Below are positions 24,101 to 61,442 of a stretch of 64,000 bases of DNA, piece after piece. Source of the DNA: Leuctra nigra (taxonomy: Eukaryota; Arthropoda; Insecta; Plecoptera; Leuctridae); NCBI GenBank assembly GCA_934045905.1, contig OW203767.1, positions 22,633,073 through 22,697,072 of the forward strand. Reading direction: 5' to 3'. The translations under genes were made by a program, and so were the position numbers. Each line of letters starts with the position of its first letter. The stretch's first letter is position 1. The notes below the pieces were generated by a model. It saw only the letters and a program-made list of their open reading frames with translations, searched no databases and was not told the DNA's origin.

Positions 24101-24129
24101 AGATGGAGGTAAATACACAAAATGAATAA
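24073..24129 (+). promoter_or_regulatory. Upstream ORF overlapping the K1 start codon
   Basis: An ATG-initiated frame of 14 codons (ATG near 24085) ends at a TAA inside AATGAATAA, so its stop lies just after the K1 ATG in another frame. The K2 leader has the same ATGAATAA overlap. Possible reinitiation control; not proven. Confidence 0.4.
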
Positions 24130-25585
24130 AATCAAATTGATCAAAACGAGAACAACATCGCTTCGGGACACGGGAAGACGTCAGCGCTCCACTCCAGATG
24201 CTGGGGCCGACGTTCAACCCCGTGTCCTTGGAGATGCCCGCAATGGGAACTCAGTGGAACGTCCTTCCACTTGTTGGGAACGCGTGAAGACGAACTGGAA
24301 CAGACGTCGGCCGCCTAGCTGGGAGCTAGAAGAAGTAGCACGTATACTAAAAACTAGACCACTGACTCCGAGACCTGTCAAGCCGAAGAGACCATCGAGC
24401 GACGTCGGGACGCAGACATATTGGGACGAGAGGGTCAGTGTAGATGTAGCAACACAAACTCACAATGTATTAGTTTATAAGGCTACCGTTAAGTACCAAG
24501 CACAAGTCCCGAAACCCCGCAAGCTTCCAGACTTCGAGCTTCCTGCTGAACTTGACGCCTCGAGCGATGAGCGAGATGAGGAGAGATGCCGGAAAGATGA
24601 ATTGTTCGTCAAGCTAGAAGGTAAAGGTTTAATTAAGAGATGCGACCCGGTCGGCATTGATTTAGGAAGTTTAGTACCGATAGGACAGGGGGGCTACGGG
24701 CATGTAGTTAGAGGGAAAGATGCTAGTGGGGAGGAGGTAGCCATCAAGCTTGTTCGCATGCCGGACGATATGGAAATGAAGTACGTGCTCAAGGAGGTCG
24801 CCATCTTGAGCCTGTTAGACCATTGTAATATCGTCCCCATGGAACAAGCTTATTGGAGTCGCGAACATCTATGGGTTGTAATGCCGCTGTGCGCACGCGG
24901 ATGTTTACTGAGCATGATGAGAAAGGCTGATTATTTGTGGGGAGAACGAATTGTTCTCCACATAACTAAAGATTTGATCCACGCCTTAGCTTATCTTCAT
25001 GTTAGGGGCATCGCTCACAACGATGTCGCGGCGCGGAATCTCCTGGTGAAGGACGATGACACACTTCTTTTGTGCGACTTCGGGCTAGCTAGAATGCACA
25101 GGGAATGGGGGAACGAGACTTTTCATCAGGATATTCATGCTATGGGTGCGCTTGCTAAGAGGATATTTATGGGGTATGACAAAGCGCCGTTGAGTGACCT
25201 CGCGTGTGTAGCCACGTTGGATATGTTCGACTTCGTTCGCTTGTGTACTCTGCCTGAAGGTGAAACACCTAGTGTTTCCCATCTGCTCTTACACAAGTGG
25301 ATGAAGCATCGATCTATGCCAATATCTTTCTCGGGAGAACAGTTGTCAGCCCCATTAGTATCCTCTCCTAAGAATGACGATCTCACTGCCAGGGTCAACG
25401 ATCATCACACGATAAGTATGAGCCGTTTTGATACTTCATTTATAGACATGTTCGATGTTAGTGACAGACCACCATCCAGTAATCAAGTAAATCTAGAGTC
25501 AACTCCACAAACACCCACTGTTTGTCAACGTTTCAAAACATGGTTACGAAAAAATTTTAAGTGCTGTTTTCCTTCCAAAAAGTAA
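24122..25585 (+). CDS. Divergent protein-kinase-like protein K1 (HND-type), single exon
   Basis: A 487 aa intact frame with kinase motifs in order: glycine-rich IGQGGYGHV (187-195), VAIK with Lys209, helix-C Glu225, catalytic-loop HNDVAARN (299-306, HRD changed to HND but Asp301 and Asn306 kept), and DFG (319-321). After DFG only about 16 residues precede what looks like helix F (DIHAMG, 337 on). I see no APE motif, and the C-lobe is short. The N-terminal ~130 residues are basic and of low complexity. The C-terminus has a Cys/basic tail, C-x-R-x3-W-x-R-x3-K-C (468-481). An in-frame TAA lies 12 bp upstream of the ATG, so this start is the first possible. It is a paralogue of the protein at 36903. 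The best guess is an active or atypical Ser/Thr-type kinase, not assignable to a named family. AATAAA lies at 25763. Confidence 0.85.
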   Translation: MNKIKLIKTRTTSLRDTGRRQRSTPDAGADVQPRVLGDARNGNSVERPSTCWERVKTNWNRRRPPSWELEEVARILKTRPLTPRPVKPKRPSSDVGTQTYWDERVSVDVATQTHNVLVYKATVKYQAQVPKPRKLPDFELPAELDASSDERDEERCRKDELFVKLEGKGLIKRCDPVGIDLGSLVPIGQGGYGHVVRGKDASGEEVAIKLVRMPDDMEMKYVLKEVAILSLLDHCNIVPMEQAYWSREHLWVVMPLCARGCLLSMMRKADYLWGERIVLHITKDLIHALAYLHVRGIAHNDVAARNLLVKDDDTLLLCDFGLARMHREWGNETFHQDIHAMGALAKRIFMGYDKAPLSDLACVATLDMFDFVRLCTLPEGETPSVSHLLLHKWMKHRSMPISFSGEQLSAPLVSSPKNDDLTARVNDHHTISMSRFDTSFIDMFDVSDRPPSSNQVNLESTPQTPTVCQRFKTWLRKNFKCCFPSKK

Positions 25586-33215: not shown

Positions 33216-34159
33216 CACACTAGCTTTCTACACACTAGCTTTCTTACTTGTTGGTAGAATCCATATGCTTTCTTTACCCTCCTCCTCACTTCTTCTCCAC
33301 ATCTAGCGTCCTCTGTCAGTAGGCTTCCCAATACGGGAAAGCTTCCGTCTTCTTCATTTCTTCACCTCTCAACTGCAACCCTTGATCTTGTGCTTTTCTC
33401 TTCTTTGCCATGACCAAATACTCGCTCTTGTCTCTACTAATCTTCATTCTAAAACATGTGCTTACTTCATTCCATTTATCTATTTTTGCCTGTACTTCGT
33501 GCTTACTCTCACTCCACACCACAATATCATCTGCATATACTCCAGTGTTGGTATTTTCCCATTTACCACCTCCCGAATCATGTCATCCATTACTACCGTA
33601 AACAGTAGTGGCGACAGCACACTTCCCTGCCTTACTCCTGAGTTTATGGAGAACCATTCAGTCTTCCCACAACCACTCTCAACACAACTTTCACATCCCA
33701 CATACAAACTCTTTACTCTTTCTATCAACCCTTGCTCAACATTCCTCTTTTCTAAACCTTCCCACACTTTACAGCGAGGCAAATGGTCGTATGCTTTTTC
33801 CAGATCTAAGAATGCCACCCACAATTCCTTTCCTTGTTCCCAACTTCTTTCCATGATATGTCTCATTGCGAAAATCAAATCGATTGCGATCCATCCTTCC
33901 TAAATCCATATTGCTCTTCTCTTAGACTCTCTTCTACATCCCATCTTAACCGTTTCTCCAAAATCCTTTCATATATCAAAGCACATTGGCTCATTAAAGT
34001 ATTACCCCGATAATTTGAGCATTGCTTCCTATTTCTTTTCTTTAAAATAGGCACAATTACTCCTCGCGACCAATCTTTAGGTACTCTTTTTTGATGACAT
34101 GCCGCACAAACCACCCGATAAAACCATTCCAATCCTGATTTTCCTGCAGCTTTAATCAT
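33143..34159 (-). pseudogene. Degenerate RTE-like non-LTR reverse transcriptase
   Basis: Four overlapping minus-strand frames together read an RT in order: GVIVPILKK and YRGNTLMSQ with QYGFR (34159-33875); FLDLEKAYDHLP and VRQGSVLSPLLF (33878-33480); the palm-to-thumb text after a destroyed FADD box (33522-33316); and GSLLTEDARCGEEVRRR (33331-33143). Frame changes and stops separate them, and no endonuclease domain is seen. The motifs resemble the RTE-type RTs of arthropods. Dead copy. Confidence 0.8.
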
Positions 34160-35407
34160 TTCAACAACACCTCATCAACACCTCACTTCATCAACACCTG
34201 CCGATCTTCCATTTTTCATCCCCATTACTGCCAATTCTATGAAATATGAAATATCAAATCCTTCATATCAATATGACATCACTGGCCGGGATAGCGTTTC
34301 CGCCAAAATTTACACTGATTTTAATGCCATATTATTGAATGAAAATGTATGCTTTTTAGTATGAAAATAGTGTGATTTACCAACAAATATGTTGTTATTT
34401 TGAAATATTGGATTTTCGAGAAAGTAGCCATTTGAAACAAATTTCAAAGGAAAAGGGGCGTGCCGCGTGCCAGTGTCACTGTCAAATATTATCTGGCAGC
34501 GTTGTTACGTTTAAACGCTAGATGGCTCACTGCAACATTTCTACATGCCTTGGAGCATGACGTCACGAGCAGGATGCCTACATGGAATCAAAATAACCGT
34601 TATGCACTCACCAAAATCTATTAGGTCTAACTTTTTAAACTCTGCTTCCAACCAGTAAGGAATGTCACTGGTTGCCATTGCAAAACAGTCCTTTTAAGGT
34701 GGCTGAATCGATCGATATTACAAAAAAAGTCTTGAAAGTACCTGCTACCATTTGTTAAAAATAAATCGCAATACCATTTCTGCAACCAATTGTAAAACCA
34801 TATACCTACATGATTACTCACTCAAAACTTTGCACGGTCATTGGGACCAACATTTGAGGTATTTTTGAAAATTTTCAGACTGATTTGTAGTTGCCTTCAA
34901 AAGTTATTTGTCGTTTAGAGGACATTTTGTTCTATAGTCTTGAAATATTTGCAAATTTATGCCAGGAATTTCATTTGGTATTCTAGCGCAGTGCCATCTT
35001 AATGCTTCCCTGCCAAGGGCTCTAGAGCACAGGCTTACAAACGCATAAGTATCACATCGTAAGCAGTAACTAGTGGCTTTTCGATACACGCTCCATTTGG
35101 TTTATGTGATGTTAGCTCTGAAAAGGGTCGTTTGTCGTCCACTAGTTGCAAATTACGATAGTTCTCGGGCCCTCAGTCAACTCAAATCGTAAGCAGTACG
35201 AAGGCTCGCTCAACGCGAGCGGTTTCCTGGTTTTAATGTTGACAATGTGTGCGACACATAAGATATTAGTTCTCGGTTATTATCTGAACTAGTTGCTATT
35301 TGAAAGTTAGCTCCTCGAATGACACTAGAGGAATTCATTTTCATAGACCCTGGTTCGATCCCGGAGACCAAGACAAAAAAAATTTGAGGGCATCATTTCA
35401 ATCACAT
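34160..35407. other. Unassigned DNA
   Basis: Nothing coding supported. A B-box-like GGTTCGATCCC at about 35350 may be a SINE remnant. Confidence 0.4.
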
Positions 35408-36848: not shown

Positions 36849-36910
36849 GGGCGGCAATGCTCGAGGACTGCGTCGAAACCAAAGTGAGCCCCGATAAATA
36901 TTATGAATAA
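36849..36910 (+). promoter_or_regulatory. Upstream ORF overlapping the K2 start codon
   Basis: A 17-codon ATG frame (ATG at about 36857) ends GAATAA so that its TAA falls in ATGAATAA, just past the K2 ATG. This matches the arrangement at K1, though the peptide sequences differ. Confidence 0.4.
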
Positions 36911-38414
36911 TATTATGGATACGAATACGAATGCGATGAATATTACGGAAGCTTACAACGAGGCAGCTAGCGGGAGCGCGCTGATTAAACAGGCCCGCCG
37001 TCTGGGTTTAGGTAGTGTTGGACCCAGTACGATAAGTTTGCTACACACTCCCCAGGGCTTCGGTGGAGCCTCTGTCTCCTACGGGGGGCAGGGGTGTGGC
37101 ACCGCACCTGGTATTTCAACCACAATTAACGTAGTGTCACCCGGCAGTTATGGTGGACACCCACCGCCGCATCCAGTTGTCACCTTAGCGTACCACGTTT
37201 CAGAGATTCCAGTAGGAAAGCCGCACCATCTTCCTCCGTTTTCCTTGCCCCCTGAATTAGACAAGGAGGGAGAGATGCGTGAAGAGGAAAGGTTTAAGGA
37301 TTTGTTTTTCAGGGCTTTGTTAGTGGCAGGGATACTTATCGAAGGTTTACCGCCATGTGATTTGTTAAACGTGGTACCGATAGGTCAGGGGGCGTATGGG
37401 CATGTCGTCAAGGTGAAAGACGAAAACGGAGTGGATGTAGCAATGAAGCTAGCTCGTATGAAACCTAATATGACCCTGAGGACTTTTCTAAATGAAATCG
37501 ACATTTGGTCCACTTTGGACCATGAGAACATCGTTAAAATGACTCAAGCTTATTGGAGTCGAGAGCATTTGTGGATAGTTATGCCTCTCTACACAAGGGG
37601 CACCATATTAGACCTTATGAGAGAGGCTCAGGTAAAGTTTACGGAACCTATTATTCGTCACATAATAAAAGATTTGCTCCGAGCGTTAGTTCATATGCAT
37701 GGCATTGGCATCGCTCATAATGACGTGGCTTGTAGGAATCTCTTAGTCGGGGACGACGGCGCCGTGCTTCTTTGCGATTTCGGTATATCCTCCTATCACA
37801 AGTCTCCCGGTGTCGACACCTTTACGAAAGATCTGCGCGCTACAGGTTTTATTGCTAAGAATATGATGGTAGATCGCAGCACTGGTCTTTTCTTTCATGG
37901 CGCAACCTCGGAGATGCTTGATTTCTATTTCTTTTGCATACTAAGATACTATCGAAAATGGTCTTCTTCGGAATTATTGGGACATGAGTGGGTACAAAAC
38001 CCAGACACAGAGGCACCACCTTTGCGAGCGCAAAAGCTCTTACCACCTGTTCCAAGTGTCCAACTTGTGTCACCTTTGACACAAGTTCCATGTGCCCCAC
38101 CGGTGGCACTTGTGTCTCTTGAGCCACTTGCCCCACCGGTGTCAATTCAGTGTCTTGATCCCAGTGTGTCACTTGATCCACATGTGTCACCGCCTCCTCT
38201 TCAAGCTAATGAACCACCTATTGAATCTATACCACCTGTAGCTCTGCAACCTAACATTGAACATGCACTGCATGAGGAAGTTGAAGTTCTGAATCCCTCC
38301 ACCGGGAAATCTTGTTGCAAGAGGATTCGAGATTGGTTTAGGGAGCACTGCAAGTGTCGTTTCAGGAAAAACAGAGTTCATCCTGCGCAAACGCCTGTTT
38401 GTACCGCGCCGTAA
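36903..38414 (+). CDS. Divergent protein-kinase-like protein K2 (HND-type), single exon
   Basis: 503 aa, intact, paralogous to K1. Motifs: IGQGAYGHV (160-168), VAMK with Lys182, Glu198, AYWSREHLW (shared exactly with K1), AHNDVACRN (271-279), and CDFG with Asp292. Only ~16 residues separate DFG from the helix-F-like KDLRATG, and no APE is present. The N-terminus is Gly/Pro-rich (40-100), unlike K1. A Pro/Val-rich linker (380-445) follows the kinase core, then the shared tail C-x-R-x3-W-x-R-x3-K-C (472-485). An in-frame TGA 18 bp upstream fixes the start. The conserved core, with divergent N-terminus and linker, suggests selection on the kinase fold and tail. Substrate unknown. The tail cysteines next to basic residues could serve lipid attachment (inference). 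Confidence 0.85.
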   Translation: MNNIMDTNTNAMNITEAYNEAASGSALIKQARRLGLGSVGPSTISLLHTPQGFGGASVSYGGQGCGTAPGISTTINVVSPGSYGGHPPPHPVVTLAYHVSEIPVGKPHHLPPFSLPPELDKEGEMREEERFKDLFFRALLVAGILIEGLPPCDLLNVVPIGQGAYGHVVKVKDENGVDVAMKLARMKPNMTLRTFLNEIDIWSTLDHENIVKMTQAYWSREHLWIVMPLYTRGTILDLMREAQVKFTEPIIRHIIKDLLRALVHMHGIGIAHNDVACRNLLVGDDGAVLLCDFGISSYHKSPGVDTFTKDLRATGFIAKNMMVDRSTGLFFHGATSEMLDFYFFCILRYYRKWSSSELLGHEWVQNPDTEAPPLRAQKLLPPVPSVQLVSPLTQVPCAPPVALVSLEPLAPPVSIQCLDPSVSLDPHVSPPPLQANEPPIESIPPVALQPNIEHALHEEVEVLNPSTGKSCCKRIRDWFREHCKCRFRKNRVHPAQTPVCTAP

Positions 38415-41571: not shown

Positions 41572-44500
41572 TTAGGCACTTGATTCAGGTGACAAAAAGT
41601 GATTTACAATAGTTATGATAATTTTTTCATTTTTTGTCACTTTCTCCTGTAGAAGTGTCCTAATCCCAACAGCATTTGAGGCAAGGAAAGAATTTTCAAT
41701 TATGCTGTATGTCATTCCTGCGTTGGCCATTCTACCTATCATCTGTGCAGAAATACCCAAGTTCTTGAATGGAAGAAGCGATGCTTTATTGTTCTTGCTC
41801 TGGATGGCATTTGACTTTCTCATGCAATAGTCTTTGAAAGGAATAGCCTGCTTTTTAATAATATTGTCTGATGGTATTGCACATATTGCTTGGAGAGTCA
41901 AAACATCACTAAGTGCATTATGTGCCGTACCTATCGCAACTGATAAATCAGCAGCGATGTCCTCCTGTTTGTACGAGTGACGATCAGGAAATGCTGCTTT
42001 ACACACTTTCAGGCTGTCTACAATGTCAGATATCAAAACTTGGCAATGCTCTAATAGTCCTACCTCTGTCGTTTCTTTTATAAGGAACCTCAGATCAAAA
42101 CCTATATTGTGCCCAACCAAGACCACCCTTTTATTAATTTCGATCAAGAAATTGATAAATCCAGCCCATGCGTCGTGTTTGGACACTGTTTCAAGTCGGT
42201 TGCCATGCAAGAATAAACTATTATTGCTTTTAGAGAGTCCTGTAACTTCAGTAACCTTCGATGGAATAGATGTTGGTAAAACATATGCCTCGTATGTTTC
42301 ATCGTTGGAAACTGCTGCAATTTGGACAACTTCAGAATTTGTCGATAATCCCGAGGTCTCCAAATCAAAGAAAACATACTGCGATTCGCCTTCGGATCTG
42401 GACAATAGTTGAACAGGCAACACCTGGACGGTCGAGTTATTCTCTCTCAATAGTCCCATACCGGAGTGGTACATTGTCCCTTCCTTCGCTTCTTGGGCAG
42501 AAGTCTCGTTGTTTCTCTTCATTCGAAGATGGACACGTCTTTTCTTAAATGTGATCTGTTTTCTAACCATCTTCTTTTTTAGCCGAAGAGCATCCATTTT
42601 CTTACGATGAGCAACAGTGTGAACACCTGGAGACAGCGTCAGTTTCTTACAAACCGGTAGTACATAACTCGTTCCCTCATTTGTTTGTGAAACGGCACAC
42701 GCCACACGATAGTCCAGCGACTGCGAACCACTGAAGCACTTAGATTTTGGGGCCTTTGATGCCACAACAGAATTGAACGATTCGTTCACTTGGGTAGAAC
42801 CACAAGGAGCTATCTTGCTTGCATTTCTGGCAAACCGTTGTAATAACTCCTGTAAATCATTGAACAGCTCTACCTTAGTAAGACACTCGCCTCGAGGTAA
42901 ACTGTTGTATTTTGTGAGAGGGTCAGATTTATGTCGACACCAGCTCTCACAATCGGAGTGGTTACCAAAAACATGATTACTAATGTTTAGAAGCGCCTTC
43001 TCTAAACCATCAGGATTTCCCTTATTTTGACCAACAGCAAATGAAAAACAACGTTTCAAATACTTTATGACCTTAGTGGAAAGAACAGAGTGCTTCGTCT
43101 TTAATTTGTATAGTGAATTATTGAACCCCTTTTTTACATGATTCAAGTCCGACCATTTAACTATATCCGACCGCCGAGCCCTAATCCCTGCCATCGTTGA
43201 CGAGTCTTCATCGCCGATGATCACTCCTAGCTCGACACCACTCGCTTCAAAAAGAGAGTTGTCTGTAGCCAGTTCTACTGCCAGGTCTGCCTCCATGGCT
43301 TTTGCACTTCTAGAAAAGTTGCATCTGCAATCATGTTCCACGATAGGTTGGTCGGCTCGTTCAAATTGGCACTGTCGACACCATTTCACTCGTGTGCCGT
43401 AGCTTAATACCTTTTTAGAGTAATGTCCCATCAACGCGCCATGTCCTAAAACAAGGAAAACAGAACAAAAATCACCAATAGACACACTTTGAAACACCAT
43501 TACTTTTACTATTGCCAATGTTGTATTGAAATATCTGCCATCTGCAACCGCTCTCATCGTAATTGATAGGTAATACATTGTTGAATAATGAATAATCTTT
43601 GTCTTCCGATTTTTTAGTTTGGATACGATTATAAAATAATTCAGTAGACACTACTAACTTTGGCTATTTTGCATTTTGTAGTTTTCTTATTAGGTATGTC
43701 AATTTCGATTGTTTCAATACTTTTAATGAAGATCACTGAATAGTGGTGGGAAAATGTAGGTAGATTTTTAATACCTAAAATAAAGTTTGTGAAAGTTCAA
43801 AGTACCTATTGAATTATTACTTGTATTATTAGTGCCTTATGCATCATGTTTATAAATGAAAATTTATATAGGTAGGAAACTCTTTCTCAGCTGTCAACCT
43901 CTTCTGGTTGAGCTTTAGGTAATTCACTAGATTTGTAATTGTAGAATCCTTGATAACTATTTTTCAACTTAATATTTCTTTTCTTAACATAAATAATACA
44001 ACCTATATTCCAATTTACCTGACAAGCTATTATAACTCTTCCCATTGCCTCTGCTTTGCCAGCCCATGTCGAACGACCCAATAATTCTGCTGGTTACTGG
44101 TGTCGGCGGAGTTTCGAGGGATGCTGTCTTTTTGACGGAGGGCGCTGCTGGCGATGGATTGACGTTGTGCGTTGTTGTTGTTTCGAGGGATGCTGTCCTT
44201 ATCACCGAGGGCGCTGCTGGCGATGGATTGACGTTGTGCGTTGTCGTTGTTTCGAGGGATGCTGTCTTTTTGACGGAGGGCGCTGCTGGCGATGGATTGA
44301 CGTTGTGCGTTGTTGTTGTTTCGAGGGATGCTGTCCTTATCACCGAGGGCGCTGCTGGCGATGGATTGACGTTGTGCGTTGTCGTTGTTTCGAGGGATGC
44401 TGTCTTTATGACGGAGGGCGCTGCTGGCGATGGATTGACGTTGTGCGTTGTTGTTGTTTCGAGGGATGCTGTCCTTATCACCGAGGGCGCTGCTGGCGAT

Positions 44501-45538
44501 GGATTGACGTTGTGCGTTGTCGTTGTTTCGAGGGATGCTGTCTTTATGACCGAGGGCGCTGCTGGCGATGGATTGATGTTGTGCGTTGTTGTTGTTTCGA
44601 GGGATGCTGTCCTTATCACCGAGGGCGCTGCTGGCGATGGATTGACGTTGTGCGTTGTCGTTGTTTCGAGGGATGCTGTCTTTATGACCGAGGGCGCTGC
44701 TGGCGATGGATTGATGTTGTGCGTTGTCGTTGTTTCAAGGGATGCTGTCTTTATGACCGAGGGCGGTGCTGGAGTTGGATTCAAGTCGTGTGTTTCGAGG
44801 GATGATGTCCTTATGACCGAGGGTGTTGTCTCCGTAACAGCTGAAGCAGCGTTTGTTAAATCCCTCTCCAAATTTATCATTTTCAAACATGACTCCCTGG
44901 CCACAGCTTCCACAGCCGGCCCAACCAATCTCTCGTGCCTTTTTAATAGACTGGCAGGCACTGGTGGCATATTTAAAGAGCTGAACAGGGTGTTAACCTG
45001 GGAGTGTCCCAAGCCAGCATCAAGCATTCCTGCAAAGTAAATAGGTAGGGATATTAGAACATTTTCTAATTTGCTGTTGTGTAGAAGAAAATATAGATGA
45101 AAATAATAATAAAAAGTACTTACCCAGAGCAAGCTTTAAATTCCCATCGTAGGTATCTGGACCTGGTTTAATGCCGGTGGTTTCACTGTTTATTTTTGAA
45201 GTCTTTACTTTGTGAATGGTTCCACACTTCAAACATGACACGTCCAGTATTGAGCAGATGCCAATTCTTCTTTCTTTCACAACATTCCGCAATGAAAGAG
45301 TAACATCACAACTTTGGCAGAAAAGGTCGTGCGCCATAACCTGCAAGTCCACAATCCTACGACCTTGCACAATCGACTGTGGACTTATTTCTACGCCTGA
45401 ACTTACATTAACTTGTGGCTCTAATTTAAAACAAACCTTCTTTCTCTTCTCAAACTCTTTTTTACTAATGAAACCTCGTTTTCCCCGTAATTTGTCCACA
45501 TGTGGCAAATTTGAACAACTTTGCAGTGGATCCGCCAT
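41572..45538 (-). CDS. Mutator-like transposase fused to DEDDh exonuclease, three exons
   Basis: Exons 45538-45124, 45029-44019 and 43445-41572 total 3,300 nt, giving 1,099 aa plus stop. Splices are CTGG/GTAAGT...TTTGCAG/GA and TCAG/GTAAAT...TTTTAG/GA, and both rejoin the frame (LALG-MLDAGLG; SLSG-HGALMG). The N-terminal region has two CxxC pairs (FCQSC, CLKC). Then come AGLGHSQVN, GSFDMGWQSRG, CRQC, IIGDEDSST and NESFNS, typical of the arthropod/cnidarian 'Mutator-like transposase domain' family. A KR-rich linker leads to a DnaQ-type exonuclease with DLET (Asp836, Glu838), HNIGFD (Asp926) and H984-x4-D989, so all DEDDh residues are present. Exon 2 carries nine 23-aa repeats. No frameshift seen; potentially active. 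It could instead be a domesticated host gene. Confidence 0.8.
44100..44805 (-). repeat. 69 bp coding minisatellite inside transposase exon 2
   Basis: Nine full 23-codon units plus two degenerate ones (core NPSPAAPSVI-K/R-TASLETTTT). Odd and even units alternate Lys/Arg and their wobble bases, giving a 138 bp higher-order period. Plus-strand frames across it are antisense artefacts. Confidence 0.9.
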
Positions 45539-46035
45539 CTTGATTTCTTGATAGACTGCCAGAGAAGTTCAACGTTGCCTTGTTTATATTGTTACAGTGT
45601 TGCATGACTTTTTATTTTAAAAGTAGATGAGAGTTTTGGCAATTTCATGTTAACAGACTTAGTAAATTACCAAATAATAAATTTGGTTTAAAAGAATATT
45701 AAAAAATACGCTCTTAAAATAAGATATTCATATAAATACGACTCTCAAATTATACACTTGGCATCACGGCTACTTACACCCTGCCTCCGTCCTATGCGAG
45801 TCAAATCAGAGACTATATCCGTTTAGTAAAAATAATATAATTAATAAGGTATTATTTCTGTGTGAAGAATGGTGTTAATACCTAATATAAGTATAAAAAT
45901 AATAGTTTGTTTTATTAAAAGCGAAAATATAAGCACACTTATTTGATTTGTGAAAAATATTTCAGAGTAAAGACTCTAATATACTAGCTCCAGAAACACA
46001 CAGCCCCCTGAATATGAGGTGAGGAACTATTGGAA
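45539..46035. other. Putative 5' flank of the transposase gene
   Basis: AT-rich. No terminal inverted repeat matching GGAGGGATCTCCGAAT was found here, so the element's right end is missing or too diverged to see. Confidence 0.4.
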
Positions 46036-47959: not shown

Positions 47960-48304
47960 GATGGTTGTTTCTCACAGATCCAGCGCTGTGGTCGGCCGCG
48001 CGTAGCGGTCGAAGGGATTGACCTCAATGAGGCTCAACTCATGGATCAGCGGATTGGCGTTGTCTGCCAACTGCTCGTAGAAGTCTTGGTTGAGCTGCAG
48101 CATGTGGTCGTCCAAGTACTCGAGGTCGAGCTGTCCGCTGTCCTCGCGTACATCGAGACTCCCAGGGCGAATCTTGCTGCCTTGTTCTGCACGCGTTGCA
48201 AAAGAGCTCGCGAGCTGAGCGAGGCACAACCGCTCCACACTGGCGAGGCGTATGTCAGCGTAGGTCGTATGATGGCAGTGTAGACGCGTGTCTTGTAATC
48301 CGAC
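47960..48304 (-). pseudogene. Jockey-like RT C-terminal remnant, part 2
   Basis: The minus strand reads YKTRVYTAIIRPTLTYASPV, then LQRVQNKAARFALGVS. After a frameshift comes DFYEQLADNANPLIHELS, the usual C-terminus of Jockey-clade reverse transcriptases. Continuous in origin with 48805-48960. Confidence 0.75.
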
Positions 48305-48804
48305 GTAGGCCTAGATGGTAACAAAATGACGTAATTTCCTGCTTTGATTTCCGGTACAAATAATTACAGCACAGAGTGTTTACATTATTAAAAATGACCC
48401 AAAAATTTACGAAAAAACAAAAAAACAAACAAAAAATTAACATAGTATAAAGATGAAGCTTGATGTCGTCTCTTGTTTTCATGTGAAAACTATTTACTGG
48501 GCAGAGATTAGAACGCGGCAAGATGACGAAAATTCGAAAAATGGAAATTATAGGTATGTTGGGCTGTCAATGATGACATTTCGTTTCACAATGATTATAT
48601 TATGCATCTTGGACCCTGTAATTTACATGTTTAAATGTATTTGAGATTACAACTGAACTGACTACCAAAGGATATTAATACATAAATTGGTCATTTTAAC
48701 TCTTTAAAACTCATTTTAGTTACTATAAAAATGTTACCCAACCGCTGGAGCCATCCCACGGACATTTTGGTTACTAAAAAAAATGTTACCCATCTAGGCC
48801 CTAC
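48305..48804. repeat. 500 bp MITE splitting the Jockey-like remnant
   Basis: Ends GTAGGCCTAGATGGTAAC and GTTACCCATCTAGGCCCTAC are inverted, with a second GTTACC near the right end. The RT text resumes on both sides. Confidence 0.75.
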
Positions 48805-53262: not shown

Positions 53263-55640
53263 TTATATTTACTGCAAGCGAGTTCGTTTCAATTTGTCTT
53301 TGGGTGATAATGAAACTGGCCTCAGATTAAATAATCTAACAGATAACATTGTGAAAGCGGCTACGAATTGATAATATTGGAATACGATAATATTCATGTT
53401 TAGATAGCTTAAATATTTTCTTTTCTTTCCAAAACAATACGAGGCATAATACGCGTAATTGTAATACGATACGCTCAGTGATACACTACAAATTATATAA
53501 GAGCAATAATCAATGGATAATCTATAGAACAAATAGAAAATAAACATGAAAATGAAAGCATGAAATGAAAAGAAGCAAGATTTTTGTTATTATTCAATCG
53601 TCTACAAAAAAAGTATTGTATTTTTAATAATGAAATTGTTTTCATCGTTATTAATTTTGAGTGTTTGTTAATTTCTCAGGCAATCTGTATTGAATAATTG
53701 TATTGTATTATATTGGAAAACTAGATCGATTGTAGTGTATATCCGTCGGAGCCCAAACGCTATTTTGGTCTTATCACTTGGTTTGTCTCGTCTATCACAC
53801 AGTGATGATTTCAGACATTTTCACAAGATAGGGCAAACCAAATTTTAGGGTGGGCACAACAACTTTTGCAAACAGGTAATACCTACTTATAAGCATAACT
53901 CTCTGAAATTATAAAAACATACAAACATTTCCACATTCACAAAATACACGTGAAAACAATGAGGGGACTGACCTTATGCGGGTCCGGTGCGCAAAGCCCA
54001 GGGAAAATTTTGAATTTCTGGATTGGATTTACAGGATTTTAAGCATTTCTGAAGTTCTTCGCAGCGATATTATTTAATTTGTTGAAAAACGAAACATGAC
54101 CGCAAAACACCGATATTTCGGAGTTTTTCTATAAAATTTTGATAGAAGGGACAAAAATGTAAGCATTAAAACACTGTTTCACGGAATATTTTATCATTGA
54201 ACTTAATTTTAAAATTCTCCAAGAAGGGGGGGGGGGGGCACTGACAGATCCAAGGGGTGGCTTTGCTCCCCCTTGGGTATGCCTGGAATCATCACTGCTA
54301 TGAGCTATCACATCTATTTTTGTCTTGTAGCCTTGCAATCTGTCGCGTGGTAATGTGGGGGGGGGGGGGGGGGGGGGGATCTCGGGAGCGACTCGAACGT
54401 CCGTCTCCTGCTGAAGCTGGCGAGAAATGAGAGTGAAGGGGCGGGGCAGTGTGAGTGCGCAGTGGTTCTTGCGCATTGCCAGCGGGTTGCGGGGGTGAAC
54501 AAGAAAGTGCAGGAATGCTGCCATAAGCGTTGTGTGCATCTTATTCCTGAAATGCTGTTATGTTCTTACGTCTTCTACAGGACAAATTAGTATGTATTCT
54601 ATTAAATTATTTTGATATTAGTATCAAGAGCTACCTAATCGTGTACATCAAAAGAATCAAAATCAGGTAACCAAAATAGTACTTTTAATTATCATAGGCA
54701 AAATGCTGAAGTATGACGTAGCTTTAGAGGAAAGAAAATTCTATAAAATCCCCGTATATAAATGAAAGTAATTATATAAAATAAAATAAAATAAAATGTA
54801 ATTAGTATATTTATAACCTATTAAATGTATGAAATAAAATCACACAATACAAGAAACTATGAATGTTATTCATTTACTTATATGAAATCATTGGTTCCCA
54901 AGTCCACTACAATATAATACTTTCTGCATTTATGTTGGAAGAGAAGGGTCGTAAGTCAGAAAATAGCTACCCCAAAGTGAAATGTTATAGTAAATACTTT
55001 TCTTTATAGCCTACAACTATTTATATTTTATATCAATTTTTGCTAGCTATAGGTAATTTTTATCTTTCATTGATTTTTTTAAAGAAGGTCCAATATTTTG
55101 ATATTTTTGATATTTTTATTTTGATATTTTTTATTAGGCATCTTACAGTTGTTTATGCACGGTGGTAAGGAATCCTACTACATGCTAATGTGCACTACAT
55201 AATGGCACTTTGTTAATTATATTACAGTCGACATAATAATAATTCTTGGTAATGATAATTTCTTAATGACTAACAATTCCATATCCAAGAATAGAATATG
55301 ACAGTAATAATAAAAGTATTAATAATTCAGTAAAACATTTGACAGAGCAACAATAAACCTATGTGGATATGCCACTCTATACAACAGTCTAGAATTCAGT
55401 TCATGAATACTTTCCATAATCAAGAGTCAAAGAACAGGAACATACATCTTAATAAGTTATAATAATAATATAATAGTTATAATAATAATACCTTAATACC
55501 TACAAGTCATTTCAGCAAGTCAATAGTCAGGTCAATAAAAATTATAATAATATAAATTAATATCGCATTAATAAATCAATTCAGCAATCATCAGCAATAT
55601 CATCAAGTAACATTTCTTATGTACGCAATAAATTTAAATT
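53263..55640. other. Unassigned AT-rich region, with simple repeats
   Basis: G-runs at 54226-54238 and 54357-54379, (ATAAA)n at 54777-54796, and TTTTGATAT words at 55095-55135. The 136-codon minus ORF at 54129-54539 crosses the G-run and is not convincing. The 3' end of the CR1-like element should lie near 55440-55700, but I cannot place it. Confidence 0.4.
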
Positions 55641-55701
55641 TAACTATTTACAATAATTTTACCATCATTCATACACAGATTAATACACAGATTTTCTACA
55701 T

Positions 55702-58623
55702 TCATTCATCAGTCTCTTCAGGAGGGCCGACCAGCATTCTGTGTATGGTGGCTCGGAATTCCTTGGTGGTCAGCCCTTTCGGAATCAGGCCGCAGTCCAG
55801 TTTGTTCCAGTCCCGAGCGGTGCGGGGAATGAAGGAATATTTACCGCAGTCTTTCTTCGTTCCCGGCTCGTGTAGGAGGCCACCTGTACCAGCTCTGCCC
55901 TCGTACCGTCGCGGGATGACCTGGCTGTTGATTTCCTGCCATCCCTGTACTCCCTCTCTTGCTCGGTACAGGTTACACAGGCGAGATTCAGTTCTTCTGA
56001 GCTCCAGCGAGTCCCATCCAAGCTCCTCCATCATATCGCTGGGGCTCTCCCACACCTTGCAGATCTCACCTTTCAAGTTCCTTTCTGTCCTCCATTTCCT
56101 TGTCCTACCGGTCACTCTCCTGGCTGCTATTCTCTGTGTTTTTTCTAGCGCCCTCTTCTCACCCTCCTTATGGGGATCCCAGACCGCTCCTCCATATTCC
56201 AGCAAGGGCCTGATGAGTGTTTTGTAGGCTTGGTTCTTTGTTTCAGATGATGTTCCGTGCAGGTTCCTCATGACGAAATTTGTGCATTTGATTCCTTTCG
56301 CAGAGACTCTACCGACTTGCTCTTTCCACTCCAATTTTCTATCTAGCCATACTCCCAGATATTTATAACCCTCGCTGCATGTAAGGGTATGGTTGCTTAT
56401 CTCGTAATGAACTATTCTAACTTCTCGCTTTCTGGAGAAGGTAACAACTTCACATTTTTCTAGGTTTAGGCACATTTTATTCGCTGTCATCCAGTGTTGA
56501 ATGACATGCAAGTCGTCCTGCAGCTGCTTTACACTGTCATCCCCTTTGATGTTTGCGTAGACCACGCAGTCATCTGCAAAGAGCCGACCTTTTGATTTTA
56601 TGTTCTTTGTCAGGTCGTTGATATATATCAGGAAGAGTTGCGGCCCGACTACGCTGCCTTGTGGAACCCCCGAGGTGACGCTCGCACTTTCTGAGAGTTG
56701 GTCAGCTATCTTGACCCTTTGGGTTCGTCCCGTGAGGAAATCCTGCACCGTTCTCACCACCGCTTCGTCCTCAATGAGCGCAGCAAGCTTGGCAACGAGT
56801 ATTCCATGGTCGACCTTATCGAATGCCTTTCGCATATCAAGAAAAATGGCATCAACCTCTTCATCAGCTTCAAGGGAGTTGGATAGATCTTGGACTAATC
56901 CTGTCAGTTGGGTCTCGCAAGAGTGCCCAGCCCTGAAACCGTGCTGTATGTTGGTAATTACCTCTTCAGCGTTCAACACTTGCCAGATATACCTCACCAG
57001 GAGTTTCTCAAAAACTTTGCAGACTGCTGAGGTGAGGCTTATCGGTCGATAGTTGGTGAGCCGACATTTCTCGCCACCCTTGAAGACCGGAATTACGATG
57101 GCCTCTTTCCAGAGAAGGGGTACCCTTCCGTCTCTCAGTATGCGCTTGAATAAGTATTCCAGGTAGATGGCAATGTCCAGGTCGCAGATTTTCAGCAGTG
57201 TGTTCGTTAGTCCGTCGCCTCCAGGCGCTTTACCGTTCTTTAGCTTCCTGATAACGTGTAGGATTCCCGTGGAATGCACTGCCATCGGAAACGATCCTCT
57301 TCTGGAACAGCACAGCGCTGGGGTCGCAGATGGAGCTGAAGATGACGTGTTAAAGACCTTGGCGTAAAATGAATTTAGAGCGTTTGCCTTGTCCTTGCTG
57401 GAAGCTATCTCATTTCCATCGGTGCCAATTAACGTGGGAATAACTCGGTCTCCTCCCTTCTGCTGTCGGATGTGCTTGTACAGTCTGGCCCAGCCCCCTC
57501 CATCATCTTCCTTGCTGAACATACTCCTCATGTAAAGATCCTTTGCCTTGGACTTGGCCCTGTTGAGCTCAGCTGTGGTCGAATACAGTTTTGCCCTCTG
57601 CGATCTGTTTCGTCTGCTTACGTTGAAAAGGACCCTGGCTTTCCTCTTCAGCTTCTTAATACTGGTGTTATAGTAGGGAGGGTCTTGGTTCGCCTTCACT
57701 CTCTTCTGCGGGATGTGCTTCTTCATCGCTGCGGACACTATGCATAGCATAGACTCCCACATCGAATCAATGCTTGAGTGGTCAGCTAGGGCCCATGTCT
57801 GAAAGCTCGTCCAGAGCTCTTCCCTCAGACCCCTTATGTCAGCCTTCTTGTAGCACCACAGTGTAGCTTCTTCCTCTGTACTCTTCTGGAGTTTGTTCGC
57901 CGTTAGGATGTCCACTACCACTGCTCTATGGTCACTGAGCTCCAGGTCCAGGACCTCACTCCTACAGATAAGGTTGTGGGGCTTCACCAGGACCACGTCT
58001 AGAAGGTTGCTTCTGTCGACTGTGATGGCTCTCGTACCCTCCGAGACAGCTTGTTCGTATCCCAAGTTCATGATCCTGGACACCATTTCTTGCTTGCCCG
58101 AGCCTGCGCCAGTTGTAACTCCCGGGATCCATTTCACATTTGGGAGATTCAGGTCTCCGGCAATGATGCTCCGGTGTCGCGCTCCAAAACAACTTAGTTT
58201 CGTCTCGAGCTGTCGAAGGAATTCAGTGGCACCTTCCCCACTTCTGTACACCCCGATGATGTCGGTGACTTCACCTGTGGGGCGGGTGGCTCGTACACAG
58301 AGAATCTCCATTTCCTCGTCGGCCCACATTATCTTTCCAGCCTCGTCGGATGATGTGCCTATGAGTACACCTCCCCCATGTCGATCTCTGTCCCTCCTGT
58401 GGACGGCAAAGCCCGGCACACTGACCTCACTGTCTTTTATGTCAGCACACAGCCATGTTTCGACTACAACAAACACATTGGGGCTGCATGCCTCGACAAT
58501 TGTTCTAAGCTTGTCGATTTTGTGGACAAGACTTCTTGCGTTGACAAGCAGGATGCGCAGTATGTGAGATGCAGATTTCGATGCTGGAGGGCAAACATAT
58601 AGCACGTTCCCCATGTCCTTCAT
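55702..58623 (-). CDS. CR1-like non-LTR retrotransposon ORF2: endonuclease and reverse transcriptase
   Basis: The open frame runs from 58683 (993 codons); the ATG at 58623 is preferred because it overlaps the ORF1 stop as ATGA, giving 973 aa. Numbers below count from 58683. The AP-like endonuclease spans ~42-255 with NARS, Glu75 (VETWL), GDLN (Asp177, Asn179) and SDH (250-252). The reverse transcriptase has YRPISL, HGFR, FLDMRKAFDKVDH (Asp616), GVPQGSVVGP and FADD (702-705). The thumb/C-terminus has YKTLIRPLLEYGGAVWDPH and IPRTARDWNKL. All catalytic residues are present and no stop or frameshift is seen, so the product could be active. It nicks target DNA and copies the element RNA. Family: CR1/L2 group from domain order; a phylogeny would be needed to be exact. 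Confidence 0.9.
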   Translation of the reverse strand: MKDMGNVLYVCPPASKSASHILRILLVNARSLVHKIDKLRTIVEACSPNVFVVVETWLCADIKDSEVSVPGFAVHRRDRDRHGGGVLIGTSSDEAGKIMWADEEMEILCVRATRPTGEVTDIIGVYRSGEGATEFLRQLETKLSCFGARHRSIIAGDLNLPNVKWIPGVTTGAGSGKQEMVSRIMNLGYEQAVSEGTRAITVDRSNLLDVVLVKPHNLICRSEVLDLELSDHRAVVVDILTANKLQKSTEEEATLWCYKKADIRGLREELWTSFQTWALADHSSIDSMWESMLCIVSAAMKKHIPQKRVKANQDPPYYNTSIKKLKRKARVLFNVSRRNRSQRAKLYSTTAELNRAKSKAKDLYMRSMFSKEDDGGGWARLYKHIRQQKGGDRVIPTLIGTDGNEIASSKDKANALNSFYAKVFNTSSSAPSATPALCCSRRGSFPMAVHSTGILHVIRKLKNGKAPGGDGLTNTLLKICDLDIAIYLEYLFKRILRDGRVPLLWKEAIVIPVFKGGEKCRLTNYRPISLTSAVCKVFEKLLVRYIWQVLNAEEVITNIQHGFRAGHSCETQLTGLVQDLSNSLEADEEVDAIFLDMRKAFDKVDHGILVAKLAALIEDEAVVRTVQDFLTGRTQRVKIADQLSESASVTSGVPQGSVVGPQLFLIYINDLTKNIKSKGRLFADDCVVYANIKGDDSVKQLQDDLHVIQHWMTANKMCLNLEKCEVVTFSRKREVRIVHYEISNHTLTCSEGYKYLGVWLDRKLEWKEQVGRVSAKGIKCTNFVMRNLHGTSSETKNQAYKTLIRPLLEYGGAVWDPHKEGEKRALEKTQRIAARRVTGRTRKWRTERNLKGEICKVWESPSDMMEELGWDSLELRRTESRLCNLYRAREGVQGWQEINSQVIPRRYEGRAGTGGLLHEPGTKKDCGKYSFIPRTARDWNKLDCGLIPKGLTTKEFRATIHRMLVGPPEETDE

Positions 58624-61442
58624 TCCCTCGTCCTCCACCAGTTTCCCGGGGAACTTGGTCTGTGGGTAAGCTGTTTGAAGCAAGTCAGCCAGTGGTGAAC
58701 GCCTGCTTTGTTTAACTTAGAACGGTCCTGGCACCACATTTTTTCCTCCATAGAGAGGCCAGGGTCGAGGAATGAATGTCCCCTACTTCCTGACTCATCC
58801 CTGATTATGAAGTTGGAAATATTACACGCTTCTCTACCTAGGTCAGCCCGAGGGGGAAGCCCACTGGTGCATATTACGGCACCTCTGAATTTGTCTTCTA
58901 CCATCCTTAAAAGATTGCGGTAATCATTGGCCAGGTTGGCTTCATCTATTCCTGCCAGTAGGTCATGTGTTCCTACCTGTAGGAATACATTGTCATACGT
59001 CTGCCTGGGATCCAGTCCATTCAAGTGGGCCGTGATTTCACTGGTACGGATCCCGGGAAGGATCCAGGCTTCGTCTTCTTTCCATTGGTAAAAGTTATGT
59101 GTGTTGGAAATCGTATCATCCGAGATAATTATACTACGTTTCCTGTTGAGGATAGGCTTTGGAGTTGGTACTGGTGGGGCCGGGGGACCATACGGAAGGA
59201 ATGGATTGGTATTGGAGGATGCTACTGGCTGTTGTGAGTGTAGCTGTGGTACTTGTGAAGGACTGGTTTGCGCCTGCTGAATAATCGGCATCCTGGGGCC
59301 CCAGGGGGGCGTTAGTGAGGTGAGAAGGTCCTCTTGTTGGTGGTGGTGATTTTTTACCAGCGTGGGCCACATTTGTCTTGCCGCACTTGTCAGCTGAGGA
59401 ATTGCTTGTGGCTGAGGGATGATGTTCCTAGATGGTATGAAGGTCCTTGTTTGTATAGGGGCTTCACCAGGGCGGGGTCCCTTTTGAGTTGACCGCTTCT
59501 TTCTCCCGGGCTTGATCAACTGCGCTGTTCCACTATGCTGAGGTTGGAAGAGTGGTGACGTTCTCAGTGTCGTCTGCTGCTGCGTTGACTTGGGCTTCGG
59601 TGAACCTGGTGGTTGCTCCAGTGGTAAAGGCAGTGTTGTATGCTGAAGGGGCTCGGGCAGGGGTGATGTTGTCGGCTGCCGCTGCTCAACTTCGGTGTTG
59701 CTTGCTAAGGAGTTGCCTACTTGAGAGGATCTGGCTGTCGGGATGTTGGTGACTTCCCCCACTGGGACGTTCTGCAGCTGCTCCTGTCCCTGCTCCCTGT
59801 CCTCACCAGGGGGACGTGTTGGTGGAACCTGCATCTCTGATTGTAGCTGCGCAGCATGAATCGAGGGTTGTGGTAACGGCATCGACTGCTCAAGTATCCT
59901 ACGCAGGAGTGACTGATGGGTAGGGACTGGGACTGGCTGCAGCAAGGGCATTGGCTGCGGCTGTGAAGACTGTGTAGCGAGGGGTCTGGTCGATGTATTT
60001 GTCTTCCTGTTCTTCCCTGCTGTCCAGTTGGTGCTCCTGCTTGTCTGCAGACCCAGTCCGGCTTCCATGCTGTAGACTTGTATGTTTATGTCCTCGTCTG
60101 CAAAAACCTCTTCGATTGTGCTTTTCACCAGCGGCCAGCCCATTCTGTCAAGCCCACATCCTATTAATGGTATGGCCAGTTTTCTGATGGATTTCTTCAC
60201 GCACGTCTTTCTCAGGTTTTTTATTGCGTTAACAAAGTCGAAGAGATATGGTTTCTGATAGTATCGTGGTTTGGTGATCATATGGAGGATCGTCCTATTC
60301 TCAACCACTTGCACTGCTACCTCCCCCACAGTCTTCCGTTGTGTCCGCAGGGCATCAGTGCCTCCATATTTGGTTTTAATTACCGCAGCAATACCCTCCG
60401 ACATCTTAAAATCCGCCGATACACAGTGGGCCAGAGCGTAATCCTCATCTGAATCGAAAAGATTTCCAGCTATTTCCTCCAAATTCAGTTTACGCTTAGG
60501 GTCTGACTGCTTTATTGCATTGATGATTTTCGGGGTTGGTGATGCTATGTTCTTATGGGAAGGGGGTGTTGCAGTATCTTTAGGAGTATGTGATGTTACT
60601 TGTGATGTATGTGGTGTTGCAGTATCTTTAGGAGTATGTGATGTTACTTTGATATCACTGGTGGTAGCGGTGAAGTGAACCAGAGCGTTACGTAGGTCCC
60701 TTACTTCCATGGCTAGGGCTTGGAGGGTGCTCTTTGTACGCTCTTGTTCCTGACTGTTATTTTGGAGGATTCCTTCAAACTTTGATAAAGAACTCATCCA
60801 CATACCTGAGGCGCCAGTTTCTGTTTTCTTATCACGATGGAGAACACTACATGGTTTACACCACCACTGCGATTCTCTTATAGAGCTCAGCACGGCATAC
60901 TGTTTGTCTGTGATGTTAATGCAGATTGAGTGAGCCCACTTGTTACAATAACCATCACAGCCTACTGCTTTATCGGATTCATTGACTTCTGTTTTACAAA
61001 CAAGGCAATATGTAGACTGAGCGGAATTTGTATCTACATCCTTGGAAACTACTGTAGGTGCGCCTATTGCATCAGTATTGATCTGTTCTGCAGTACTCTT
61101 CAGTGTCCTCCTAACAGCACCTCTACCATTCCCATTCCTAGGGTCTATGGTGTTTAGTTGTGGCTTGTTACCAGCTCTGAAACAGCTCTAGCTGAAAATA
61201 GCGATTTTTGAGTACTAAAGGGTGCGAAATTTCTTCTGTGAAATTAGCCCTAGCCTAACTAGGCAAATGAGAAAATGGCCAAGGGAACAAAATTATAAGG
61301 AAAAACTTATTACAGTGATAAGATAAGTATAATCACAAACCTCAGGATTGGCCTGTTCTTGATCAGATGGCGAAGAACCGTCATCCAAGTCCAGACTGAG
61401 TTTCTCCATCTTCTGTACAACGTGTTCACTGTCACTGTCCAT
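58620..61442 (-). CDS. CR1-like ORF1: PHD finger, TARG1-like macro domain, degenerate SGNH domain
   Basis: Open minus frame from 61187 to the TGA at 58620. It has no ATG before the PHD finger. An ATG exon 61442-61341 (34 codons) can be joined by GAG/GTTTGT...CAGCTAG/AGC to give 889 aa; this splice is inferred. Domains: PHD finger CLVC-x13-C-x3-C-x4-H-x2-C ... WCKPC at the start. Then, counting from codon 60893, a macro domain ~144-276 with LAHCVSADFKMSEGIA, GEVAV, ITK (Lys208) and PLIGCGLDRMGW (Asp249). These equal the catalytic Lys84 and Asp125 of human TARG1/OARD1. A Pro/Gln-rich linker with RKKR (280-590) follows. Last is an SGNH-esterase-like domain 588-757 in which Ser, Asn and His positions read Asp593, His643 and Lys726. 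PHD plus esterase is known in CR1 ORF1; the macro domain between them is unexpected. Confidence 0.85.
61188..61340 (-). other. Putative intron in the CR1-like ORF1 leader
   Basis: 153 bp with GT...AG ends. It removes the TAG that closes the PHD frame upstream. The donor GTTTGT is weak, and the acceptor uses the second of two close AGs because only it keeps the frame. Confidence 0.4.

Follow-up and report, generated by a model that had tools for sequence, protein, structure and literature searches.

Can a retrotransposon carry its own eraser of host ADP-ribose? The question is raised by a 64,000-nucleotide stretch of the Leuctra nigra genome (contig OW203767.1, positions 22,633,073 to 22,697,072; hereafter the window), where a CR1-like non-long terminal repeat (non-LTR) retrotransposon was predicted from its letters to encode, within its first open reading frame (ORF1), a macro domain like that of the ADP-ribosyl hydrolase TARG1 (OARD1, C6orf130). 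Comparison of the domain with the PDB using phmmer revealed a match to TARG1 with an E-value of 5.6e-30; five TARG1 sequences topped the 7 matches, and the next was 5m31, a DarG (E = 3.3e-4). The general Pfam Macro model was weak on the same domain (E = 0.0011, below cut-off). The predicted structure of the domain (predicted local distance difference test score 90.2) ranked TARG1 first in both Foldseek and VIA-align. Structure-based alignment paired model residues 8..146 with TARG1 residues 13..151 (138 pairs) at a constant offset, so that the Lys and Asp of the predicted catalytic dyad fall on TARG1 positions 84 and 125, and both were also in register in a residue-by-residue alignment. These analyses confirmed a TARG1-type macro domain and bore out the original prediction on both catalytic residues. 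The domain had been placed at 59990..60460, between a PHD finger and an esterase-like domain; it does lie in the open frame with PHD and SGNH/GDSL domains on either side, but its bounds shift to 60069-60485 and the esterase part has lost its catalytic Ser. We put at roughly 0.55 the probability that this is a working TARG1-type hydrolase in the ORF1 ribonucleoprotein, erasing host ADP-ribose and keeping the element active.

To examine the spread of the domain, the host genome (536,196,549 bases in 144 contigs) was searched. ORF1 as query gave 82 matches. TARG1-like matches numbered at least 150 scored for each of two queries, Littorina OARD1 and the window macro domain, these counts being lower bounds drawn from 379 and 377 first-look candidates, respectively. 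We examined 82 loci, comprising the best matches picked by the search and two 3'-end pieces (L081/L082), and found a recognizable macro domain in 74 of them, representing 42 distinct sequences. The 8 macro-free loci were L081/L082 and six matches to the SGNH end (L009, L011, L012, L016, L018 and L020), among which L011, L012 and L016 appear 5'-truncated and L009, a copy of the window element's family (family A), aligns only from ORF1 residue 422 onward. Seven other family A copies (L002-L008) all carry the macro domain. Using sequence and architecture, we sorted the 74 macro loci into 16 families of our own grouping: 10 long interspersed nuclear elements (LINEs) with the macro domain in ORF1, classed as non-LTR because an endonuclease frame adjoins the macro ORF; 4 Gypsy-like families with the domain between protease and reverse transcriptase (RT); and 2 assigned to neither class. 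About 30 more apparent families were seen by eye among the listed genome matches. A macro domain in LINE ORF1 is therefore not a one-off.

The architectures of these families differ. The order PHD-macro-SGNH was found in families A, B and C (the SGNH part of C by tblastn and as Pfam OSK), and family D had PHD-macro, with no SGNH match by Pfam in L013. Family E combined the macro domain with a weak PHD match seen by tblastn only; families F, H and I were macro-SGNH, family G was SAP-macro-SGNH and family J SAP-macro. At the level of single loci, L027 and L042 have a SAP domain in the N-terminal part of a LINE ORF1 alongside the macro domain, and ORF1 of L013 and L014 has a long run of QPPVRENIPQQAPSQQYQSLQHC-type repeats at its end. 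Protease and RT surrounded the macro domain in all four Gypsy-like families (L030, L032/L033, L034/L036 and L046), with RT in a separate frame piece in L030, L034 and L046. The Gypsy-like label rests on these two domains, the fetched flanks of about 1.5 kb stopping short of LTRs or integrase, and some of the Pfam matches were below cut-off (no protease model passed in L030, and RT was under cut-off in L046). The macro domain of L044 lies beside a CCHC frame, and L045 had no Pfam match. Pfam reported no macro domain in F, L044, L045 and L046 and scored several others below cut-off; in these cases the call is based on our own profile and BLAST.

Copies within families were nearly identical. L002-L007 were 99.85-99.95% identical to the window copy (L001) over about 4.05 kb and L008 98.8% identical over 2.8 kb, and the family A copies sit in differing flanks. 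Family B copies were 99.87-100% identical to L059 and family C copies 98.6-99.5% identical to L072, with within-family identities of 97.5-99.8% in D, 98.9-99.8% in E and 98.4-99.8% in H. The macro carriers have thus been mobile recently.

We also used phylogenetic trees to follow the history of the domain. Families A-D formed one clade in the endonuclease tree (99/99) and in a macro tree (98/97), which fits descent of the macro domain with the element. Gypsy-like and non-LTR macro sequences clustered in one macro tree (95/88), while the second contained a smaller Gypsy-like/non-LTR group (90/84) and L032 and L044 shifted to the A-D side; this suggests, not firmly, exchange of the domain between element classes. 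The two macro trees required 4 and 8 changes between cell and element labels, and at least 3 were forced by supported branches in each; the 'cell' label is presumptive for unnamed metagenome sequences, and some rows sit on long branches. The first tree was built without 14 of 72 short TARG1 relatives, and the second without P0085 and 37 of the 72. A macro-free relative was found at C8:29825145-29826569, where the ORF1 search matched the PHD and SGNH parts only. The 1081-base sequence from this locus (L083) is a single open frame combining a PHD-like part with a Gln-rich linker and the GDSTL of an SGNH domain; these domain calls rest on BLASTP, in which the SGNH part had 71% identity with family B across 34 residues. 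No macro domain was detected in L083, with a macro profile score below zero and an E-value of 0.039 against a single sequence. Since this ORF1 has PHD-like and SGNH parts without a macro domain, the macro domain is a module that can be present or absent in ORF1s that are otherwise alike. We consider it very improbable that the domain is a passenger or metabolic module, a captured cellular TARG1 that plays no part in host conflict and serves to process O-acetyl-ADP-ribose or to keep ORF1 soluble. TARG1 does hydrolyse O-acyl-ADP-ribose too (PMC7050489) and the partner SGNH domain has an esterase-type fold; however, decay would be the expected fate of a mere passenger, whereas many families retain this domain and have near-identical copies that moved recently, and the label changes forced in the trees also argue against it.

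The dyad residues were compared across families. Lys84 is retained in 15 of the 16 families, the exception being D (Arg), and Asp125 in 13, the exceptions being C (deletion), D (Gly) and L046 (Asn); in family D (L013/L014/L015), both dyad residues have been lost from ORF1. An alignment of 15 families, excluding L046 with its missing Asp, had a mean pairwise identity of 43%, with the Lys column conserved in 14/15 and the Asp column in 13/15. Codons were compared in 38 hand-chosen pairs (19 between and 19 within families), using profile envelopes that include some linker. Synonymous sites were saturated in 17 of the 19 between-family pairs (non-synonymous rate, dN, 0.34-0.70), and the 2 pairs with a finite synonymous rate (dS) gave dN/dS of 0.25 and 0.19, a pattern that fits purifying selection on the macro codons. 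The most informative within-family pair, L038/L042, had a dN/dS of 0.27; L038 carries a stop. These data bear on a different role, that of an ADP-ribose reader that would tether the ribonucleoprotein to ADP-ribosylated chromatin or PARP-active DNA nicks and aid insertion targeting or nuclear localization. Three fetched families keep the domain though one or both dyad residues are missing, and several have a PHD finger or SAP domain, known readers of chromatin or DNA, in the same ORF1. Macrodomain activity has been lost recurrently in viruses and PARPs (PMC10221186). A pure reader, however, would not need the Lys/Asp dyad, which 13 of 16 families retain at about 43% mean identity, and we regard this role as unlikely.

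TARG1-like domains were also found beyond this genome. Searching long proteins with the window macro region gave one match, P0002, a Gypsy-like polyprotein with the macro domain after the integrase. The Gypsy-like L032 used as protein query gave 13 matches, with element-like architectures in P0079 (RNaseH-macro-integrase), P0083 (RNaseH-macro) and P0086 (RT-macro, a Planococcus citri gene model); P0080, P0083 and P0084 were judged from precomputed domains only. A further P. citri protein, P0085, has no RT, and P0087 is a viral methyltransferase protein. No RT was present in 8 of the 13 matches (five beetles, a thrips and two metagenome proteins). The macro domain is thus fused at differing positions in unlike retroelements, including those of metagenomes and a mealybug. 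In the beetle proteins P0076-P0078, P0081 and P0082 (Aquatica, Tribolium, Brassicogethes and Dendroctonus), an additional C-terminal region accompanies the TARG1-like macro domain and RT had no match; these are possibly a conserved beetle gene. TARG1-like domains or folds were observed in insect-associated RNA viruses (P0087, and Foldseek on viral models), in negev-, virga- and flavi-like viruses and Kadipiro virus VP8, and Foldseek on viral models, with proteins taken as listed, also returned such folds in Cressdnaviricota and iridoviruses. Two scans of viral contigs revealed no relative.

What might the domain do? The identity of the domain, its catalytic dyad, its conservation across families and its repeated association with unlike retroelements are direct observations. 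Building on them, we propose that the element packs a TARG1-type ADP-ribosyl hydrolase into its ORF1 ribonucleoprotein (or its pol), where the enzyme would strip ADP-ribose that host transferases attach to the ORF1 or ORF2 proteins; the modified targets could also be the element's RNA or cDNA, or factors that impose silencing where it inserts. Removal of the ADP-ribose would keep the element active. In mammals, SIRT6 mono-ADP-ribosylates KAP1, leading to L1 silencing (PMC4695847), so one ADP-ribose writer does act on LINE silencing. TARG1 substrates include ADP-ribose on Glu/Asp, on nucleic-acid ends and on thymidine (PMC9411070), and RNA ADP-ribosylation has been proposed as a mark of transposon or viral RNA (PMC7050489). 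The hydrolase might instead protect the element's own nucleic acid, taking ADP-ribose off RNA ends or single-stranded cDNA bases as DarG does against DarT. Against such a role, which we judge distinctly improbable, this host has no known DarT-like enzyme, though no search for one was completed, and protein-linked substrates are equally plausible.

Several points weigh against a carried hydrolase that works on host ADP-ribose. Its catalytic activity, its substrate and the counter-defence benefit are all inferred, and no host transferase acting on elements was identified. ZAP/PARP13 belongs to the PARP family and restricts L1, but it works through its zinc fingers, which are sufficient (PMC4441479), and so gives no support for an ADP-ribose mark. 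The domain is kept without the full dyad in families C, D and L046, so catalysis is either not always needed or of a kind like that of DarG or SCO6735; DarG lacks the Asp and SCO6735 both residues, and both still act on DNA (PMC9411070), so inactivity is not established for families C and D. Conserved at least as well as the Lys and Asp columns were 24 and 30 of 137 columns, respectively, making the dyad part of a better-kept set and not unique in it. The selection sought on the macro codons fits between families only: the 19 within-family pairs hold too few changes for a test, and several are replacement-only (e.g. L037/L039, 0 silent and 4 replacement). The bootstraps of both macro trees are not settled. 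Finally, the window copy, with no Met codon upstream of the PHD finger in its ORF1 frame, is probably unable to make full ORF1.

The features of the window element are listed in Table 1.

Table 1. Coordinates of the retrotransposon and its parts within the window
Feature	Position	Strand	Basis
CR1-like non-LTR retrotransposon, 5'-truncated copy	55086..61169, ends approximate	-	comparison with other copies
ORF1, 855 codons stop to stop, of which roughly the first 6 are flank	58620..61187	-	
PHD finger	60849..61007	-	Pfam PF00628 E 1.9e-6, ORF1 residues 61-113
TARG1/OARD1-type macro domain	60069..60485	-	phmmer against PDB
Lys codon at TARG1 Lys84 position	60270..60272	-	Lys of ITKPR, residue-level alignment
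Asp codon at TARG1 Asp125 position	60147..60149	-	Asp of GLDRMGW, residue-level alignment
SGNH/GDSL esterase-like domain, SDD replacing GDS	58623..59150	-	Pfam PF13472 E 0.0017, below cut-off
ORF2, 1004 codons stop to stop	55702..58716	-	
Apurinic/apyrimidinic (AP)-type endonuclease domain of ORF2	57928..58539	-	Pfam PF14529 E 4.1e-9, PF03372 E 9.7e-5
RT domain of ORF2	56347..57060	-	Pfam PF00078 E 6e-33

At the 5' end, identity of the window copy to L002 stops at about 61169, where the window copy is truncated and L002-L008 extend further upstream. At the 3' end, identity reaches about 55118 (against L082) and 55102 (against L081), followed by an AAATATC-type tail. The ORF1 frame of uninterrupted family A copies is 910 codons long; 4 such copies were fetched, and 2 others have one stop each. 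The element has the AP endonuclease and RT in ORF2 and the PHD finger in ORF1 of a CR1-like retrotransposon; the label 'CR1-like' is based on ORF1 type and the 3' tail, the latter a criterion for such elements. Comparison of the catalytic Ser motif of the SGNH domain across families revealed SDD in place of GDS at about 59115-59123; since families B, F, H and I have GDS at this position, esterase activity of the family A domain is doubtful. The motif is SDS in C and SDD also in L011, a relative of family A, and a motif scan found no GDS-type motif in D, E, G and J. Family C has thus lost macro Asp125 though its SGNH SDS is kept, GDS is kept in B, and A and L011 have SDD; the two ORF1 enzymes seem to decay independently of each other. 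With the catalytic Ser absent, the window element is not filed under the esterase type; a catalytic-Ser esterase is not a requirement for every CR1-like ORF1 (PMC4120745). Elsewhere in the window, 33567-34219 and 48136-48348 (minus strand) are likely remnants of other RT genes, with 25-34% identity to ORF2. Judged by eye from translations, two similar protein-kinase-like frames lie at 24113-25585 and 36888-38414 (plus strand), and the region 41572-45568 (minus strand) is transposon-like, with an exonuclease-like 692-aa frame next to one that contains NPSPAAPSVIKTASLETTTTHN-type tandem repeats.

Set against known systems, TARG1 is a small stand-alone cellular protein (an ALC1-like macrodomain hydrolase), whereas here it is a module within a retrotransposon ORF1. 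The window element resembles CR1-like LINEs with PHD or esterase ORF1 (types III and IV) in its PHD finger, SGNH-like domain, AP endonuclease and RT in ORF2 and short-repeat 3' tail. A survey of 448 Jockey-superfamily ORF1s, whose main text contains no word starting with 'macro', found the esterase type in two vertebrate groups only (PMC4120745); in contrast, PHD, macro and SGNH all occur here in one ORF1. The expectation of a new kind of host-element interaction has to be narrowed. A macro domain has likewise been captured by retroelements of fish, in which epsilon-like endogenous retroviruses are reported to have macro domain proteins (PMC4977317), so the presence of such a domain in a retroelement is not in itself new; the fish carriers, however, are retroviruses with additional ORFs, while here the domain lies in LINE ORF1 and Gypsy-like pol. 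Titles and abstract openings among the matches listed, with subscription papers mostly uncovered, mentioned neither a macro domain in LINE ORF1 nor TARG1 in retrotransposons. The best-studied viral macrodomains are MacroD-type. Viral macrodomains such as coronavirus Mac1 and alphavirus nsP3 share the proposed role of host ADP-ribose eraser (PMC10499221), but they act in RNA viruses, and the structural Z of the window domain to nsP3 is only about 16. DarG, which is 21-22% identical to the window domain, lacks the Asp and is paired with DarT in bacterial toxin-antitoxin systems. Bdelloid LTR retrotransposons likewise show modules shared across retroelement types, in their case GDSL and DEDDy ORFs common to other retroelements; the main text of that paper has no word starting with 'macro' or 'ADP-rib' (PMC5408684).

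Taken together, these data support the original prediction overall and hint that jumping genes and their host are in conflict over ADP-ribose. Of the two outcomes named beforehand as fatal to the prediction, absence of the domain from all other copies of the element and catalytic positions out of register in a structure-based alignment, neither was observed. On a broader and more tentative view, which we would not yet favor, ADP-ribosylation may be a general anti-retroelement defence in the host lineage, and the TARG1-type macro domain a shared anti-defence module that was acquired on several occasions and exchanged among LINEs, Gypsy-like elements and, perhaps, RNA and DNA viruses associated with insects. 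Such a contest would be the eukaryotic counterpart of the DarT/DarG conflict and of that between PARPs and viral macrodomains. Natural versions with and without the catalytic residues are available for comparison. The pattern extends the use of macrodomains, known from viruses, to LINE and Gypsy-like elements of the ordinary kind that reside in genomes. Should the domains prove active, they would point to ADP-ribose as a mark whose removal retrotransposons need in order to spread, and it would become possible to test directly what PARPs and other transferases contribute to transposon control.
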